DNA of 20,776 nt from a virus, in IMG/VR virus record IMGVR_UViG_3300044470_000279, positions 1 through 20,776 of that record. One strand, 5' to 3'. Shown one piece after another: positions 7,723 to 18,684 of the stretch. A program made the position numbers and the translations under genes. Within the stretch, counting starts at the first letter, position 1. Every line of letters starts with the position of its first letter. The notes under the pieces are model-generated. The model saw only the letters and a program-made list of their open reading frames with translations, was not told the DNA's origin and ran no database searches.

Positions 7723-7735
7723 TAATATATTAATG
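7717..7735 (+). promoter_or_regulatory. TTTTAATAATATA box, copy 3
   Basis: TTTTAATAATATATTAATG is identical to copy 1 over 19 bases, then GGGGAG replaces AAAAGGAG. It lies 31 bases before the ATG at 7748. Confidence 0.5.
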
Positions 7736-7747
7736 GGGAGTGTTAAA

Positions 7748-12096: not shown

Positions 12097-12110
12097 TAAT
12101 ATACAAATGA
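12091..12110 (+). promoter_or_regulatory. TTTTAATAATATA box, copy 4
   Basis: TTTTAATAATATACAAATGA lies 31 bases before ATG 12122 and is followed by AGGAG. It marks the boundary between the tailed cassette and the replication block. Confidence 0.5.
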
Positions 12111-12121
12111 AGGAGTAAAAA

Positions 12122-12310: not shown

Positions 12311-12602
12311 GAAAACAATTGAATATTACAATGCAATTGATGCTACAAGAAAATGCTCAGTTAAAGGTTGCATTGGAGAAGCAAAATGGAAGGTGTTTCA
12401 TACAAAGTATTATTCATACAACAATACAACCTTAAGAGACAGAAATTGTTACATTCCACTTTTATGTGATTCACACAAACAAGAGGATGAAAAATTTGGA
12501 ATAATCACAAATCAAAATTCTATTGGCGCATATTCAGAGTATGAAGCACTTGAAAAAAATATTAAAAAAATCAAATATACAATTCAAAAAGGAGTATTGT
12601 AA
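12300..12602 (+). CDS. Putative zinc-ribbon-like small protein
   Basis: 100 aa from ATG 12300, five bases after AAAGGAGAAAGC; the open frame extends upstream but within the previous gene. CSVKGC (C-x4-C) near residue 19 and LLCDSH (C-x2-H) near residue 55 could coordinate zinc, with strands KWKVFHTKYYSY between. A helical end EYEALEKNIKKIKYTIQ follows. It may be a small regulator or DNA-binding accessory of replication, but the role is not shown. The TAATG junction couples it to the winged-helix gene. Confidence 0.5.
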   Translation: MNNKKTIEYYNAIDATRKCSVKGCIGEAKWKVFHTKYYSYNNTTLRDRNCYIPLLCDSHKQEDEKFGIITNQNSIGAYSEYEALEKNIKKIKYTIQKGVL

Positions 12603-12919
12603 TGGAAAAAAAAAATGATGTTAAAATTATTAACTTTATGGAACCCACAATGTTTTATAGACATGTTGCAATGAAATATGGTGTAAATGAATCTATTGTT
12701 TTGTATTATCTATATCGAGAAATAGAGTATGCAAAAATTAAAAATGAAGATTTTGATGGAACAAATTATTGGGTATTTGAATCAAATGATTATCTTAAAA
12801 AAGAATTTCCATTTTGGAATGATATTCAAATTATAGAAATAATTGATTCTCTAATTACAAAAAAAATTATAAGCATTAAAAATGATAACTGGTTTACTAT
12901 CATTGAAGGAGTAAAATAA
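12602..12919 (+). CDS. Winged-helix protein, short paralogue of the replication initiator
   Basis: 105 aa. The pattern YGVNESIVLYYLYREIEYAK, then DGTNYWVFESNDYLKKEFPFWND, then EIIDSLITKKIISIKNDNWFTI is the same as in the next protein (GLEEAIMLNNIIYWIK, DGYYWTYNTIDAYVKTFTFWS, RILNSLVKQGAIKK). This is the wHTH domain seen in phage replication initiators. It lacks the C-terminal region. It may regulate, pair with or compete with the full-length protein. Start and stop overlap neighbours as TAATG junctions. Confidence 0.65.
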   Translation: MEKKNDVKIINFMEPTMFYRHVAMKYGVNESIVLYYLYREIEYAKIKNEDFDGTNYWVFESNDYLKKEFPFWNDIQIIEIIDSLITKKIISIKNDNWFTIIEGVK

Positions 12920-13536
12920 TGAAAAATAAAGAAGAAGAAAAAATAAAAATTTATGAAATAATTTCAGAAATTATAGAAAAAAATGGTAAAATAGAAAAAG
13001 ATGATTTTGGTAAACAGTATAATGCAAATACTCTTTTAGCAAATATGTATGGTTTAGAGGAAGCTATCATGTTAAATAATATTATTTATTGGATTAAAAA
13101 AAATAAAGATAAGAAAAGAAATTTTCATGATGGATATTATTGGACATACAATACAATTGATGCTTATGTTAAAACATTCACTTTTTGGTCATATACAACA
13201 ATAAAAAGAATTCTAAATTCTTTAGTAAAACAAGGCGCAATTAAGAAAGGTAACTACAATACAAATAGATATAATCATACAAATTGGTATACTGTTATAG
13301 AAGGGTTCTTGTTATTAATATATGATCTTAGAAATGATGAAGAAGTACAAAATCAACCCATCGATGAGGCCAGAATCACCTCATCAGATGAGGCCAGAAT
13401 CAACTCATCAATGAGGCCAGAACCATCCCACCATTATACAGATATAATACCATATATAATACCAGATATAATAGCTGAGAATCAAGAAATAGCTAAAGAA
13501 ATTAAGAAAAAATATGAGGTATTTAATTGCAGCTAA
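12919..13536 (+). CDS. Winged-helix replication initiator-like protein
   Basis: 205 aa. The wHTH domain occupies about residues 38-128: an AIMLNNIIYWIK helix, DGYYWTYN, the recognition helix region FTFWSYTTIKRILNSLV and a wing NRYNHTNWYTVI. A linker of about 135-175 is encoded by repeated DNA (DEARITSS, DEARINSS, then DIIPYIIPDIIA), and a short helical end follows. Phage initiators of this kind bind repeats in their own gene and recruit the helicase. That is inferred here from the repeats and from the DnaB-type helicase downstream. AAGGAG precedes the ATG. Confidence 0.7.
   Translation: MKNKEEEKIKIYEIISEIIEKNGKIEKDDFGKQYNANTLLANMYGLEEAIMLNNIIYWIKKNKDKKRNFHDGYYWTYNTIDAYVKTFTFWSYTTIKRILNSLVKQGAIKKGNYNTNRYNHTNWYTVIEGFLLLIYDLRNDEEVQNQPIDEARITSSDEARINSSMRPEPSHHYTDIIPYIIPDIIAENQEIAKEIKKKYEVFNCS
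13363..13425. repeat. Three iteron-like direct repeats (candidate origin)
   Basis: GATGAGGCCAGAATCA at 13363-13378 and 13387-13402, and ATGAGGCCAGAACCA at 13411-13425. Spacings are 24 and 23 bases, so the third is in another reading frame yet keeps the DNA sequence. GATGAGG and CCTCATC also form a dyad (13363-13369 with 13379-13385) and a CCTCATC-A-GATGAGG palindrome (13379-13393). The stretch is much richer in G+C than its surroundings. Confidence 0.7.
13441..13476. repeat. Three 12-bp AT-rich repeats (candidate unwinding element)
   Basis: GATATAATACCA, TATATAATACCA and GATATAATAGCT follow one another, 15 bases after the iteron-like repeats. They encode D-I-I-P, Y-I-I-P, D-I-I-A. Iterons next to AT-rich tandem repeats is the usual plan of a replication origin. 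Confidence 0.6.
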
Positions 13537-13598: not shown

Positions 13599-14291
13599 AT
13601 GGAAAATTTAGACAAAATTGATATTATTAAAAAAACCTTTAAAGGGTTAATGCTTAGGCATTTACAAGATCTTAATCCAGAGGCAAAAGAAGATAATAAT
13701 ACTATTAGAAGTATATCTCAAAAACTTATAGAAAAAAACTATTCATGTTTTGATAACATTATTATTCCTCAACAATATGATTCAAGAATAGAAAGAATAA
13801 TCAAAACTTTAATTCTTAATCAAGTGTTTTATAAGTTTCCACATATTGATACTTCAACTAATATTATAGAATTTCAAAAGCATATATTTGATATTCAAAA
13901 TAAGAATTTAGATTTTAATAAATATATGTTATCACATTTAAGACTAATTCAATTTAATGAAGAAGAGTATCTAAGTGGAATTGCATTATTGAATGAAATT
14001 GAAGATGCAAGCACTATTATTTTAACTGATGAAAATAATCCAAGTTTCACAAATGATATAAACAAGTACGGTAAATATATTGTCAATCAAATTGAATCAA
14101 TAATCAGAACTAGAATAATTAGAAACAAAAATACAATTATATGTATGTCTGATGAAAATTTAAAGAAATATGAAATATATAATATTACAAAAAATGAAAA
14201 TTTCAAAACTATGAAAGATATTAAGTTCAAAGAAATTGTTGAAGTAACATCATCAAAAACTTATGAAGAAAAAATTAATACAATGTACTAA
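13599..14291 (+). CDS. Unknown 230-aa protein of the replication block
   Basis: A mostly helical, polar protein with no motif I can name. It has its own promoter and operator dyad upstream and sits between the initiator and the DnaB-type helicase. That is a position where helicase loaders or primase-associated proteins are often found, but no Walker motif is present, so an AAA+ loader is excluded. The C-terminal ending ACAATGTAC-TAA reappears 730 bases later after the inserted endonuclease gene. AAAGGAG lies seven bases before the ATG. Confidence 0.6.
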   Translation: MENLDKIDIIKKTFKGLMLRHLQDLNPEAKEDNNTIRSISQKLIEKNYSCFDNIIIPQQYDSRIERIIKTLILNQVFYKFPHIDTSTNIIEFQKHIFDIQNKNLDFNKYMLSHLRLIQFNEEEYLSGIALLNEIEDASTIILTDENNPSFTNDINKYGKYIVNQIESIIRTRIIRNKNTIICMSDENLKKYEIYNITKNENFKTMKDIKFKEIVEVTSSKTYEEKINTMY

Positions 14292-14306: not shown

Positions 14307-14960
14307 ATGTACATATACAAGACAACTATTATACCCACAAATGAAATATACATTGGTCAATGTTCAAAGGATAGTAAAGACACATCAGATTATTTAGGTT
14401 CAGGAACAATTTTACAACACAAAATCAACAAATATGGCGTTGAGAATTGCAAGAAAGAAATATTATTAAATCACATTAAAGATCAAGAAGAATTAAATCT
14501 TTTTGAAATAATGTTTATCAAATTAAATAGAATCAAGTATGGTAGATACAAAGTCTTGAACATAGCAGATGGTGGAAGTTCTGTAATGTTAGGTAGAAAA
14601 CAAACAGAAGAATCAAAAGAAAAAATTAGACAAGCGCATTTAGGTAAAAAACAATCTCCAGAAGCAATAGCAAAAAGAGTTGCAAAAAACACAGGTAAAA
14701 AACGTACTGAAGAATCAAAACAAAAAATGAGAAAACCAAGAACAGAAAAAGGAAAAGCAAATATGAAACTTGCTCAAAATAGACTTGAAGTAAAAGAAAA
14801 GAAAAGTAAACCATGTTCAGAACAAACAAGATTGAAAATGAGCATTGCAAGAAAAGGTGTACCAAAAACAGAACAACACAAGAAAAATATTAGTTTATCT
14901 CAAATAAGACAAAAACTTATAAACAGAAAATGTTCAGAACAAACAAAACAAAAAATTTGA
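14307..14960 (+). CDS. GIY-YIG homing endonuclease with NUMOD3 repeats (1)
   Basis: 217 aa. MYIYKTTIIPTNEIYIGQ is the GIY-YIG core; the YLGSGTIL motif, the Glu in NLFEIMF and the Asn in LNIADGG complete the nuclease domain (1-95). Then there are several NUMOD3-type modules (HLGKKQSPEAIAKR, GKKRTEESKQKMRKP, RKGVPKTEQHKKN), which bind DNA in homing enzymes. It is free-standing, not in an intron. It is flanked by a short direct repeat and lies directly upstream of the DnaB-type helicase. The C-terminus stops after SEQTKQKI, shorter than its paralogues, so the last module is truncated. Confidence 0.85.
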   Translation: MYIYKTTIIPTNEIYIGQCSKDSKDTSDYLGSGTILQHKINKYGVENCKKEILLNHIKDQEELNLFEIMFIKLNRIKYGRYKVLNIADGGSSVMLGRKQTEESKEKIRQAHLGKKQSPEAIAKRVAKNTGKKRTEESKQKMRKPRTEKGKANMKLAQNRLEVKEKKSKPCSEQTRLKMSIARKGVPKTEQHKKNISLSQIRQKLINRKCSEQTKQKI

Positions 14961-15039: not shown

Positions 15040-16449
15040 ATGTTAAATATTTTAAAAAATGCAAAATTATGGGATGACAAGGAACTAGAAAGAGAAGTAT
15101 ATAATCTATCTAAGGTTATACGACCAAAAGTTGGAGAACAATTAAAAGGAAACAATCTGCTAGGATTAGAATTGAATTCTGAAGTACTTGAGATGATAGA
15201 TTATGTGATTGTCTATTTTGAAGAAAATAGGTATATACCTTCATTTCCAGAAATATATAAGAAATTCAATTCATTTAAGTTTCTTTCAACAAAATACGAA
15301 AGTAAAGTAGAATTCAAAAACTACTTTGAAGAAAAGAAAGCATTCTATTTAGATAGAATTCGTATTAGCAAATTACGAGAATGCCAAGAAGAAACATCAG
15401 CAAAGAAGCAATTAGAACTATTAGATGATGTGAGTAGAATTGTTTCAGAAAAGCTCAATTCAGTAATTGAATTAAAATGTGCGACTCAATTTAATTGGGA
15501 AAAAGATTTTAAAGAATCAAAAGTAGCAGAAGAAGGCCCGAAAACAAATATTACATCAATTGACACAATAACTGGTGGAATAACAGCAGGAAAATTAATG
15601 ATAGTGGCTGCACCCCCAAAATGTTTAAAAACAATGTTTTTAATCAATATGTGTCATGAAGGCATAATAGAATATGAACCAGATAACAATACTCTATTCA
15701 TTTCATTAGAAATATCAGAAAAGGAATTGATGCAGAAACTAATTATAAGACATTCTAAGAAGTTTAATTCAAAATTAGATATAAAAGTAGTAATTAAAAA
15801 CAAATTAACAGAAGATGAAAAAAAAGAATTTTTAAGAGTAGCTGATGATTTTAAAAAGTCAAAGAAACATGATTTATTTATTTTGGATGGAACAAAGATT
15901 CAAACAGAGAGTCTGATCGCACTAAGACAACAAATATCAGATTTTATAGAAAAATATAATATTAAAACAATTATGATTGATTATATGCAGATGTTTAAGA
16001 ATTTCAATTATAGAGGCTATACAAATAGATATGATCAACTCAATGATATTGTAAGTCTGTTTCATGTAATAGAAATTAAATATAATGTTAGAGTGATTCT
16101 TGCGTCACAAATAACAAGAGAAGGACAAAAGATGAATGATACTCAAAAAGGAAAAAATAAAAAAGCTGGATTTCAACCATATCATTTATCAGAAGTATCA
16201 AATCTTGAAAAATACGCATATTATATTATATTTCTAGATACAGACGAGGTTTTAAAGAAGTCAAATCAGTTTAGGTATCAATTATCTCGTCATAGAGACG
16301 GAGAGACCATTGAGGATCAGAAATGTGCGTATGTAGATTTTAAATATTTCTATATCTCAGAAAGCGGATTTACATCTTTAGAAGAACAATTTTCTATTCC
16401 ACAAGACAAAACAAATCAACCAATAGCTGAAATTGACTTATTTGATTAA
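15040..16449 (+). CDS. DnaB-type replicative DNA helicase
   Basis: 469 aa. The N-terminal domain (to about 145) is unlike classic DnaB. The RecA-like domain has ITAGKLMIVAAPPKCLKTMF (P-loop near 191-198), SLEISEKEL with the catalytic Glu near 224, Walker B IMIDYMQMF near 311-319, RVILASQITREG near 351-362, and SRHRDGET near the end, the arginine-finger/C-terminal motif of the family. The P-loop reads A-P-P-K-C-L-K-T, without the usual Gly before Lys. It unwinds DNA at the phage fork. GGTGG precedes the ATG. It is flanked on both sides by GIY-YIG genes, as is typical of a conserved target. Confidence 0.88.
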   Translation: MLNILKNAKLWDDKELEREVYNLSKVIRPKVGEQLKGNNLLGLELNSEVLEMIDYVIVYFEENRYIPSFPEIYKKFNSFKFLSTKYESKVEFKNYFEEKKAFYLDRIRISKLRECQEETSAKKQLELLDDVSRIVSEKLNSVIELKCATQFNWEKDFKESKVAEEGPKTNITSIDTITGGITAGKLMIVAAPPKCLKTMFLINMCHEGIIEYEPDNNTLFISLEISEKELMQKLIIRHSKKFNSKLDIKVVIKNKLTEDEKKEFLRVADDFKKSKKHDLFILDGTKIQTESLIALRQQISDFIEKYNIKTIMIDYMQMFKNFNYRGYTNRYDQLNDIVSLFHVIEIKYNVRVILASQITREGQKMNDTQKGKNKKAGFQPYHLSEVSNLEKYAYYIIFLDTDEVLKKSNQFRYQLSRHRDGETIEDQKCAYVDFKYFYISESGFTSLEEQFSIPQDKTNQPIAEIDLFD

Positions 16450-16462
16450 GAAAGGATAAGTA

Positions 16463-17338
16463 ATGTACATATACAAGACTACAATAATTCCAACCAATGA
16501 GATTTACATTGGACAATCAATTCATAAACCTGAAGAAACAACAGATTATCTAGGTTCAGGTAAAATATTGAAAGCTAAAGTAAATTATTATGGCATAGAA
16601 AATTGCAAGAAAACAATTCTAATTGATGATTTAGATAACAAAGCAGATTTAGATTTCTTTGAAAAAGTTTTAATTGAGGCTAATAGAGAAGATTTTGGTG
16701 ATTTAGTTATTAACATTGCAGATGGTGGAGGCGGAGGAGTTGGTACTTTTAAAATACACAAACAAGACTGTAAATGTTCATTTTGCAAAGCCAAACGTGG
16801 CGAACTAAAAGGAAAATCAATGTCAGAACAAACAAAACAAAAAATGAGAATTTCAGCAAATAATCCTGAAGTAAAAGAGAAAAAAAGACAAGCTCATTTA
16901 GGTCAAAAGTGTACTGAAGAAACAAAATTAAAAATTAAACAATCTAATTTAGGACAAAAACGTTCAGAACAAACAAAAGAGAAAAATAGGCTTTCACATT
17001 TAGGTAAACCAATTGATCATAAATTAACTTGTCAATGTTTTATATGCAAATCCAAGAGAGGTGAAATGAAAGGAAAAATAGTATCAGAACAAGCAAAAGA
17101 AAACATTAGACTTTCACATTTAAAAAATCCAAATTGTCAATGTTGCATGTGCAAATCTAAACGTGGAGAAAGGAAAGGTATTGTCTTATCAGAACAACAT
17201 AAGAAAAATTTGAGAAAACCAAAATCAGAACAAGGAAAAGCAAATATGAAACTTGCTCAAAATCGTCCTGAAGTAAAAGAAAAAATTAGACAAACACGTT
17301 TAGGTAAACCGAGAGGAAATTATATTAAGAAGCTATAA
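16463..17338 (+). CDS. GIY-YIG homing endonuclease with NUMOD3 and Cys-knuckle modules (2)
   Basis: 291 aa. The nuclease domain starts with MYIYKTTIIPTNEIYIGQ (identical to enzyme 1), then YLGSGKIL, LDFFEKV and INIADGG. The C-terminal array mixes NUMOD3 modules with three copies of a C-x-C-x2-C-K-x-K-R-G-E knuckle (CKCSFCKAKRGE, CQCFICKSKRGE, CQCCMCKSKRGE). These are probable small zinc-binding units. The gene begins 14 bases after the helicase stop, with AAAGGA. Its last codons are part of a 14-bp hairpin (17331-17364). Confidence 0.85.
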   Translation: MYIYKTTIIPTNEIYIGQSIHKPEETTDYLGSGKILKAKVNYYGIENCKKTILIDDLDNKADLDFFEKVLIEANREDFGDLVINIADGGGGGVGTFKIHKQDCKCSFCKAKRGELKGKSMSEQTKQKMRISANNPEVKEKKRQAHLGQKCTEETKLKIKQSNLGQKRSEQTKEKNRLSHLGKPIDHKLTCQCFICKSKRGEMKGKIVSEQAKENIRLSHLKNPNCQCCMCKSKRGERKGIVLSEQHKKNLRKPKSEQGKANMKLAQNRPEVKEKIRQTRLGKPRGNYIKKL

Positions 17339-17667: not shown

Positions 17668-18684
17668 ATGAATAAGTATTATGGATATATTTACAAGACT
17701 ACAATAGTTCCAACTACTCAAATTTACATAGGACAAAAGAAAGGAACTATCGAAAAAACTAGAGACTATTTAGGTTCAGGTAAAATATTGCAAGCTAAAG
17801 TGAATCATTATGGACAAGAGAATTGTTTCAAAGAAATATTAAGCATTTGTAAAGACAAGCAAGATTTAAATGAAATGGAAATATTTTGGATAGAATACTT
17901 TAGAAGTATATTATCAGATAAAGTATTGAATATTACCAATGGTGGTGAAGGTTTTCATGGAAAGCATACTGAAGAATCAAAACAAAATATTAGACTCGCA
18001 CATTTAGGCAAACCAAAATCACCACAAGCAAAATTAAATATGAAACTTGCTCAGAATCGACCTGAAGTGAAAGAAAAGAAAAGCAAAAATATTAGTATTG
18101 CAAAAAAAGGCAAACCATGTTCAGAACAAACAAGATTGAAAATGAGCATTGCACATTTAGGCAAACCAATGTCAGAACAAGCAAAAGAAAATAATAGACT
18201 TGCTCAAAATCGACCTGAAGTGAAAGAAAAGAAAAGCAAACCTAGATCAGAACAAATAAAACAAAATATGAGAAAACCTAAATCAGAACAAACAAAACAA
18301 AAAATGAGAAAACCTAAGTCAGAACAAGCAAAATTAAATATGAAACTTGCTCAGAATCGACCTGAAGTGAAAGAAAAGAAAAGCAAAAATATTAGTATTG
18401 CTCATTTAGGCAAACCATTATCAGAAGAACATAAAGCTAGCATTAGTATTGCACTAAAAGGAAAATCCAAATCAGAAATGGGACACAAAGAAAATTGCAA
18501 ATGTATGTGTTGCAAAGCCAAACGTGGTGAACCAATGTCAGAACAAGCAAAACAAAATATGAGCATTGCTCATTTGGGTAAACCGAGAGTAAAGTATATT
18601 AAAAAGTTTGAAAACAGTTGGTGGTGTAGTAAAGATCGTATAGATGATAGACAACTTAAATTGAGGTTATTGAATGAAATTTAA
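17668..18684 (+). CDS. GIY-YIG homing endonuclease with long NUMOD3 array and C-terminal tail (3)
   Basis: 338 aa. YGYIYKTTIVPTTQIYIGQ, YLGSGKIL, LNEMEIFWIEYF and LNITNGG define the nuclease. About ten NUMOD3-like units follow, including two copies of a 78-bp identical DNA block, and one CKCMCCKAKRGE knuckle. The protein then ends KYIKKFENSWWCSKDR, followed by the tail DDRQLKLRLLNEI. So a homing enzyme has acquired the same tail as the small proteins. Its tail DNA starts the next gene with 11 bases of overlap. Recombination at the junction repeat is a likely cause. Confidence 0.85.
   Translation: MNKYYGYIYKTTIVPTTQIYIGQKKGTIEKTRDYLGSGKILQAKVNHYGQENCFKEILSICKDKQDLNEMEIFWIEYFRSILSDKVLNITNGGEGFHGKHTEESKQNIRLAHLGKPKSPQAKLNMKLAQNRPEVKEKKSKNISIAKKGKPCSEQTRLKMSIAHLGKPMSEQAKENNRLAQNRPEVKEKKSKPRSEQIKQNMRKPKSEQTKQKMRKPKSEQAKLNMKLAQNRPEVKEKKSKNISIAHLGKPLSEEHKASISIALKGKSKSEMGHKENCKCMCCKAKRGEPMSEQAKQNMSIAHLGKPRVKYIKKFENSWWCSKDRIDDRQLKLRLLNEI
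18024..18101. repeat. 78-bp direct repeat inside endonuclease 3, first copy
   Basis: Identical to 18324-18401 at a distance of 300 bases, in frame. Exact identity implies a recent duplication or gene conversion of NUMOD3 modules. A partial third copy lies near 18193-18242. Confidence 0.8.
18324..18401. repeat. 78-bp direct repeat inside endonuclease 3, second copy
   Basis: Second exact copy of the block at 18024-18101. The 300-base unit between starts encodes NUMOD3 modules in the same frame, so expansion or loss would keep the reading frame. Confidence 0.8.
18649..18681 (+). repeat. Junction repeat, copy 5
   Basis: It encodes RQLKLRLLNEI at the end of endonuclease 3 and supplies TTGAGG and ATG (18674) to the next gene. 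Together with the KOW start it matches 11627 onward for almost 60 bases. Confidence 0.8.

Follow-up and report, generated by a model that had tools for sequence, protein, structure and literature searches.

In the phage DNA analysed here, three long repeats and three 12-mers lie one after the other inside the gene of a winged-helix replication initiator, and this locus is very probably a theta-type replication origin carried within its own initiator's gene (Table 1). The stretch under study, referred to below as the window, is an entire IMG/VR record of 20,776 bases, with a G+C content of ~25% and almost all of its genes on the same strand. An initial annotation, made from the sequence, had already proposed a candidate origin in this gene, and the proposal is supported by the winged-helix relatives, in which the two-part layout recurs at the corresponding position. 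Our analysis establishes the two-part architecture, its conservation at the level of the DNA, its link to one initiator family and the covariation of the repeats with the recognition helix.

Table 1. Coordinates of the origin, the initiator and neighbouring genes in the window.
Feature	Position	Strand	Remarks
Iteron 1, AAAATCAACCCATCGATGAGGCC	13349..13371	+	repeat family D1 (23 bp)
Iteron 2, AGAATCACCTCATCAGATGAGGCC	13372..13395	+	repeat family D1 (24 bp)
Iteron 3, AGAATCAACTCATCAATGAGGCC	13396..13418	+	repeat family D1 (23 bp); one base shorter, hence in another reading frame
Iteron/12-mer junction, degenerate half-repeat AGAACCATCCCACC	13419..13437	+	ATTAT where relatives often have AACCTATA
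Three 12-mers, ACAGATATAATA CCATATATAATA CCAGATATAATA	13438..13473	+	family profile; period 12
Initiator gene, 205 aa	12919..13536	+	phrog_11233 E=1.9e-30; phrog_6493 E=7.8e-20
Winged-helix domain, common to all homologues used	13036..13306	+	alignments A1, A2
Recognition-helix codons T93 to K96 (family columns K60, R63)	13195..13206	+	covariation; model helix 92-104
Small winged-helix paralogue, 105 aa, overlapping the initiator start	12602..12919	+	32% identity over 90 aa, E=7e-11; phrog_11233 E=1.8e-9
DnaB-like replicative helicase	15040..16449	+	PF03796 E=2.7e-27; phrog_19 E=1.5e-33

The core sequence of the long repeats, GATGAGGCCAGAATCA, is found in exact form at 13363 and 13387 and with two mismatches at 13410, that is with spacings of 24 and 23 bases. 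In shuffled windows 0.05 matches are found on average, and never three; it is also absent from the other 40.7 kb of the same phage (contig G001, described below). Two of the iterons are identical over 16 bp. Each iteron joins the half-sites CTCATC and GATGAG, and the array thus contains two interlocked dyads, which around iteron 2 are GATGAGG-N9-CCTCATC (13363-13385) and CCTCATC-A-GATGAGG (13379-13393). The window has the shorter dyad ATGAG-N11-CTCAT only at 13364 and 13388 (0.07 expected). The best score for a repeat of 20-25 bp in the initiator gene is 21, compared with no more than 12 in 1,000 codon shuffles, and with 49% GC the iteron block is a compositional outlier in a genome of ~25% GC. 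In view of the shuffles, the dyad counts and the absence of the repeat elsewhere, the three long repeats with interlocked dyads described in the initial annotation are confirmed, and the shift of the third copy to another frame (23-base spacing) is real; the elements that it placed at 13363-13476 do exist, but the array begins somewhat earlier, at 13349.

The three 12-bp repeats reported to follow the long ones are likewise present, at 13439, 13451 and 13463, or at 13438, 13450 and 13462 in the register of the family. When the family 12-mer profile, for which the window is one of the 47 training cases, is applied to both strands of the window, 13450 ranks first and 13438 second. Against codon shuffles of the window gene alone the 12-mer score is moderately significant (P=0.0036); the copies have no CCTATA lead-in and one of them (CCATATATAATA) is degenerate. 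Their description as AT-rich holds only in part: their GC content is low (22%), but that of the DNA just downstream is 23%, and there is no A+T excess over the flank. The low duplex stability of the block corresponds to the 96th percentile over 36 bp and to about the 79th-81st over 50-100 bp. We regard this block as a candidate for a sequence-specific unwinding or loading element.

For a broader view of the family, we have employed 178 winged-helix loci, drawn from among the matches listed in IMG/VR, GTDB genomes and phage records and reduced to 71 by clustering of their linkers; since the clusters were set by linker similarity, related lineages among the 71 are not wholly independent. Codon shuffles were the null for most tests. 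The mean self-similarity of the linker DNA is highest at a lag of 22 (0.349 versus 0.272 in the codon shuffles, z=11.6, n=71), followed by lag 23 (z=5.9) and by smaller rises at 21, 24, 12, 8 and 14, and the winged-helix DNA of the same 71 homologues has no peak at lag 22 or 23. Significant repeats of 20-25 bp are found in 43 of the 71 linkers, compared with one of 71 control stretches. They are 22-24 bp long, palindromic and lineage-specific, with inverted arms around an A-rich centre as their common form, and the relatives have them followed by 12-mers in the same place as in the window. Absence of the repeats from relatives had been named in advance as an argument against an origin; the relatives carry them. 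The view that the DNA rather than the peptide is conserved, at first drawn from the third copy lying in another frame, is borne out as well, and the relatives provide the stronger proof.

The part downstream of the iterons has the consensus of a tandem 12-mer, [AC]CAGATA[AT][TA]AAA, often with AACCTATA ahead of it. It exceeds the 99th percentile of the null in 47 of 71 linkers, in none of the 71 winged-helix domains and in 4 of 68 downstream stretches. Within the 12-mers the third codon bases agree with the motif 237 times, where the gene's own codon usage would predict 114 (z=16), and this agreement includes phages of 57-66% GC. Of the 46 relatives with the 12-mers inside the ORF, 43 read them in one common frame and three in another. 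When IMG/VR was scanned for CCTATACCAGATANNNNNNCAGATA without regard to homology, at least 120 contigs matched, and in 77 of the 80 loci inspected this family's winged helix precedes the match in the same orientation, its end being 22-232 nt away; for two of the three others it is cut off by the contig end. The 100 nt ahead of the motif in these scan loci have a lag-22 identity of 0.50 (0.26 expected). The 12-mer block is near-exclusively linked to this initiator family, and since both the lambda tract and the TP901-1 rep gene score low (see below), it is a feature of this family rather than of phage origins in general. Its conservation over phages of many bacterial phyla is unusual, and it is seemingly undescribed so far: a literature search with the 12-mer strings gave no match, which is weak evidence considering the incomplete coverage of subscription papers, and general literature searches, also of incomplete coverage, returned no description of it. 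One exact match to the two-copy iteron pattern (locus L005) was set aside as unrelated, its gene adjoining terminase and portal-like genes.

Dyad covariation, in a set of 35 sequences, is modest (best z=4.0), and we have consequently put more weight on a pair of rumen phages, L002 and L003, and on a test of the recognition helix. These two phages encode winged-helix-only proteins that are 86% identical, and their iterons and 12-mers are placed 3' of the stop codon in noncoding DNA; the two-part layout persists although it no longer encodes a linker. Between the two phages both arms are altered in both iterons (GTGACAAAATGT(C/T)AC against GTATCAAAATGATAC), with a perfectly symmetrical change in L003, and the 12-mer part, CCACCTATACCAGAGACTAACAGAGAATAA, is identical. 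As many as 6 of the 15 amino-acid differences between the proteins fall within the 12-residue recognition helix (P=0.0015). In the wider test, on 112 non-redundant proteins and with overall domain distance partialled out, which removes shared ancestry only partly, K60 and R63 are the top two columns for the right arm of the last iteron (0.251 and 0.229; permutation maximum 0.174) and for that of the second iteron (0.233 and 0.167; permutation maximum 0.157). The left arm, too, has them in first and second place (0.232 and 0.158), with K60 alone passing the maximum of 0.191. None of the control DNA stretches rises above its own permutation maximum, and one reaches its own 95% level. The window's equivalents of these two residues are T93 and K96.

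The initiator itself consists of an N-terminal helix, the winged helix, the origin-encoded linker and a short C-terminal tail. Its residues 37-150 match the phrog_11233 profile, "replication initiation protein", and it matches phrog_6493, a DnaD-like loader family, in the N-terminal domain. An AlphaFold2 model has the winged helix at residues ~36-130 (pLDDT 84-98), and the linker, residues 143-185, is predicted to be disordered (pLDDT <50); this is the stretch encoded by the origin. A sequence search of the PDB found no solved relative of the winged-helix domain. In relatives the linker is followed by a C-terminal domain that can be DnaD (L018), Phg_2220_C (L024) or lambda-O-like (L017). The window protein stops ~20 residues past the 12-mers and is without the usual C-terminal domain, which is an unusual feature; the DnaD C-terminal domain (TIGR01446 / PF07261) present in L018 has no match in it. 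The small paralogue just upstream is truncated and might compete for the iterons or have a regulatory role. A small upstream gene of phage phiLdb was considered as a homologue of this paralogue and rejected, the two not being homologous.

The genomic setting can be extended with G001, an IMG/VR contig of 40,720 bases that overlaps the window from 14750 on (99.98% identity over 6,027 bases) and, on the strength of this overlap, is the same phage, of which ~55 kb are then known. No turn in GC skew, a feature that had been anticipated at the locus, is seen there: the skew is positive over the ~55 kb with no change of sign. G001 (L010, L011) encodes a family B DNA polymerase of the T4 type (phrog_262, E=2e-135). 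It also has genes for a clamp loader, a UvsX-like recombinase, an exonuclease, another DnaB-like helicase and, at L011:472-1365, a 297-aa protein of pentapeptide-like LSNSN/LSHSD repeats. In phages with T4-type polymerase genes, recombination- or R-loop-primed starts are expected, and the pairing of an initiator-origin module with a T4-type polymerase set is unusual here. Considering the polymerase, clamp loader and recombinase, the phage may start its replication mainly in other ways. Among the matches listed, a helicase search gave no close relative beyond G001 itself, and none was found that shares the window's iterons, the nearest being ~50% identical in the domain. The closest matches of an AAA ATPase at 168-1289 are in metagenomic phages of 635-735 kb (30-39% identity), suggesting that the window phage may be large.

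A DnaB-like helicase, the presumed client of the origin, is encoded 1.5 kb downstream of the initiator gene. Between the two lies a 230-aa ORFan (13599-14291) for which no relative was found in IMG/VR and which is, by its position only, a candidate helicase loader. Three genes for homing endonucleases of the GIY-YIG/NUMOD3 type, with internal repeats, surround the helicase gene (14307-14960, 16463-17338 and 17668-18684). Elsewhere in the window, at least ten otherwise unlike small genes have a common C-terminal motif, approximately R[QK][IL]KL[RK]LL[NRK][ED], situated exactly at the junction with the next gene (gene ends at 1806, 7722, 9538, 9692, 11662, 11891, 12096, 18684, 18895 and 19106), and G001 has several further cases. 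This motif may be either a peptide tag or a DNA element of gene junctions. Directly 3' of three of these genes is a near-identical intergenic sequence, TAATATATTAATG (1807-1822, 7723-7738 and 12097-12112, the last as TAATATACAAATG).

If the locus works as an origin, winged-helix dimers would occupy the inverted half-sites that alternate along the three iterons (23-24 bp) and, as the covariation suggests, contact them with the recognition helix, at its N-terminal end. With half-sites spaced by about one helical turn, the bound dimers would line up along one side of the double helix and put strain on the adjoining 12-mer block. By analogy with SPP1, lambda and the RepA_N replicons, this block would then open to provide a single-stranded loading platform for the DnaB-like helicase of the phage. 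Because the initiator is without the C-terminal domain of its relatives, the recruitment of the helicase probably falls to a different protein of the phage or is done by the helicase itself.

Could the repeats instead be an operator, by which the winged-helix protein, bound to its own gene, regulates transcription of the replication operon, with replication starting elsewhere or by recombination in the T4 style? Winged-helix proteins are often repressors, the small paralogue is just upstream, the 12-mers hold the -10 consensus TATAAT three times and the T4-type polymerase, clamp loader and UvsX-like recombinase would suit such a start. However, the repeats lie deep inside the gene, ~430 bp into it, relatives have 12-mers that do not form -10 boxes (CAGATAATAAAC, CAGAGACTACT), and the combination of repeats and 12-mers goes with replication-initiator families whose C-terminal domains are DnaD, lambda-O-like or Phg_2220. 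An operator in place of an origin thus seems unlikely to us, although the two roles could be compatible within one element.

The evidence also bears on the state of the origin, which could be the residue of an initiator-origin module that a T4-type phage took up and that has since decayed. The loss of the C-terminal domain, the degeneracy of one 12-mer and of the last half-iteron, the T4-type replication genes and the nearby homing endonucleases could all be read in this way. Nevertheless, the ORF is uninterrupted and two iterons have kept their 16-bp identity. The winged-helix-only proteins of L002 and L003, moreover, go with iterons that are kept under compensatory change, so that loss of the C-terminal domain need not mean loss of function; we consider a vestigial origin very unlikely. 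As for the disordered linker, its repeats might be mere products of peptide-level selection or slippage, a tandem duplication in an unconstrained low-complexity segment, and the shared frame of the 12-mers in most relatives would speak for this. We have rejected this explanation, which is hardly credible considering that the dominant family lag of 22 bp is no multiple of three, that third codon bases track the motif, that in L002 and L003 the element lies outside the ORF with its dyads kept and that three relatives have the 12-mers in another frame.

Returning to an active origin within the initiator gene, we can tentatively suggest a more specific version of it, which to our mind is rather more apt to fail than to hold. 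The 12-mer array, often led by AACCTATA, would be a sequence-specific origin element kept in phages of many bacterial phyla and base compositions, a phage equivalent of the 13-mers of oriC that a conserved partner recognises in single-stranded form; iterons and recognition helix would diverge together as a specificity code; and the module in this phage would drive a T4-type polymerase set via an initiator stripped to its DNA-binding domain. If the reading of the locus as an origin is right, the origins of hundreds of uncultured phages could be located from their sequences, for a single short pattern finds at least 120 IMG/VR contigs and nearly all of the inspected matches are beside the initiator. 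A variable specificity part (iterons and two helix residues) would also be separable from a constant opening part (the 12-mers), making it a testable question what recognises an unwinding element. Finally, it would suggest that a T4-type polymerase and an origin of the plasmid style can serve one and the same phage.

The plan of an origin within the initiator gene is itself already known experimentally from SPP1 oriL, lambda ori and the pSK41 ori, and the present origin is built like these, but by sequence its initiator is neither RepA_N nor lambda O. In Bacillus phage SPP1, oriL lies in gene 38, whose product gp38 binds direct repeats in its own gene beside an AT-rich unwinding element, with gp39 as loader and gp40 as DnaB-type helicase (PMC6316719). 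The likeness to SPP1 is one of plan; unlike SPP1, the window has no separate loader gene that we could recognise, and a T4-type polymerase set is present. The lambda ori, in the middle of the initiator gene O, has four dyad iterons and then an AT-rich tract (PMC7466680; L187). The parallel with lambda O/ori drawn in the initial annotation holds as an analogy of mechanism only: PF04492 (Phage_rep_O) has no match in the window initiator (lambda O itself, E=5.7e-36), the nearest solved folds are RepA_N initiators, and the lambda tract scores 4.1 with the 12-mer profile against a 99th-percentile null of 11.3. A lambda likeness is found in the relative L017, with its lambda-O-like C-terminal domain (49% identity). 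The rep gene of Lactococcus phage TP901-1 similarly has small repeats in the linker, and its product a DnaD-type C-terminal domain, but the N-terminal domain is HTH_36-like, the repeat is of 15 bp and there is no family 12-mer (score 7.5). In plasmids of the pSK41 type, the RepA_N gene rep has the ori (Rep boxes) at its centre, the N-terminal domain binds this ori and the linker is encoded by origin DNA (PMC5703833). The window shares the repeats within the initiator gene and the linker encoded by them, and differs in belonging to a phage and in the absence of the C-terminal domain. The RepA_N profile PF06970 has no match in the initiator at E<=0.01. After re-alignment, the best solved structural matches to the model are RepA_N plasmid initiators (4pql, 4pt7, 5kbj and 4pta; Z 10.2-9.0), with a high rmsd of 6.6-7.3 A and with other winged helices reaching Z 8.6. 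In the PLE satellites the RepA_N domain covaries with its own origin (PMC8263062), just as initiator domain and origin covary in the window's family.
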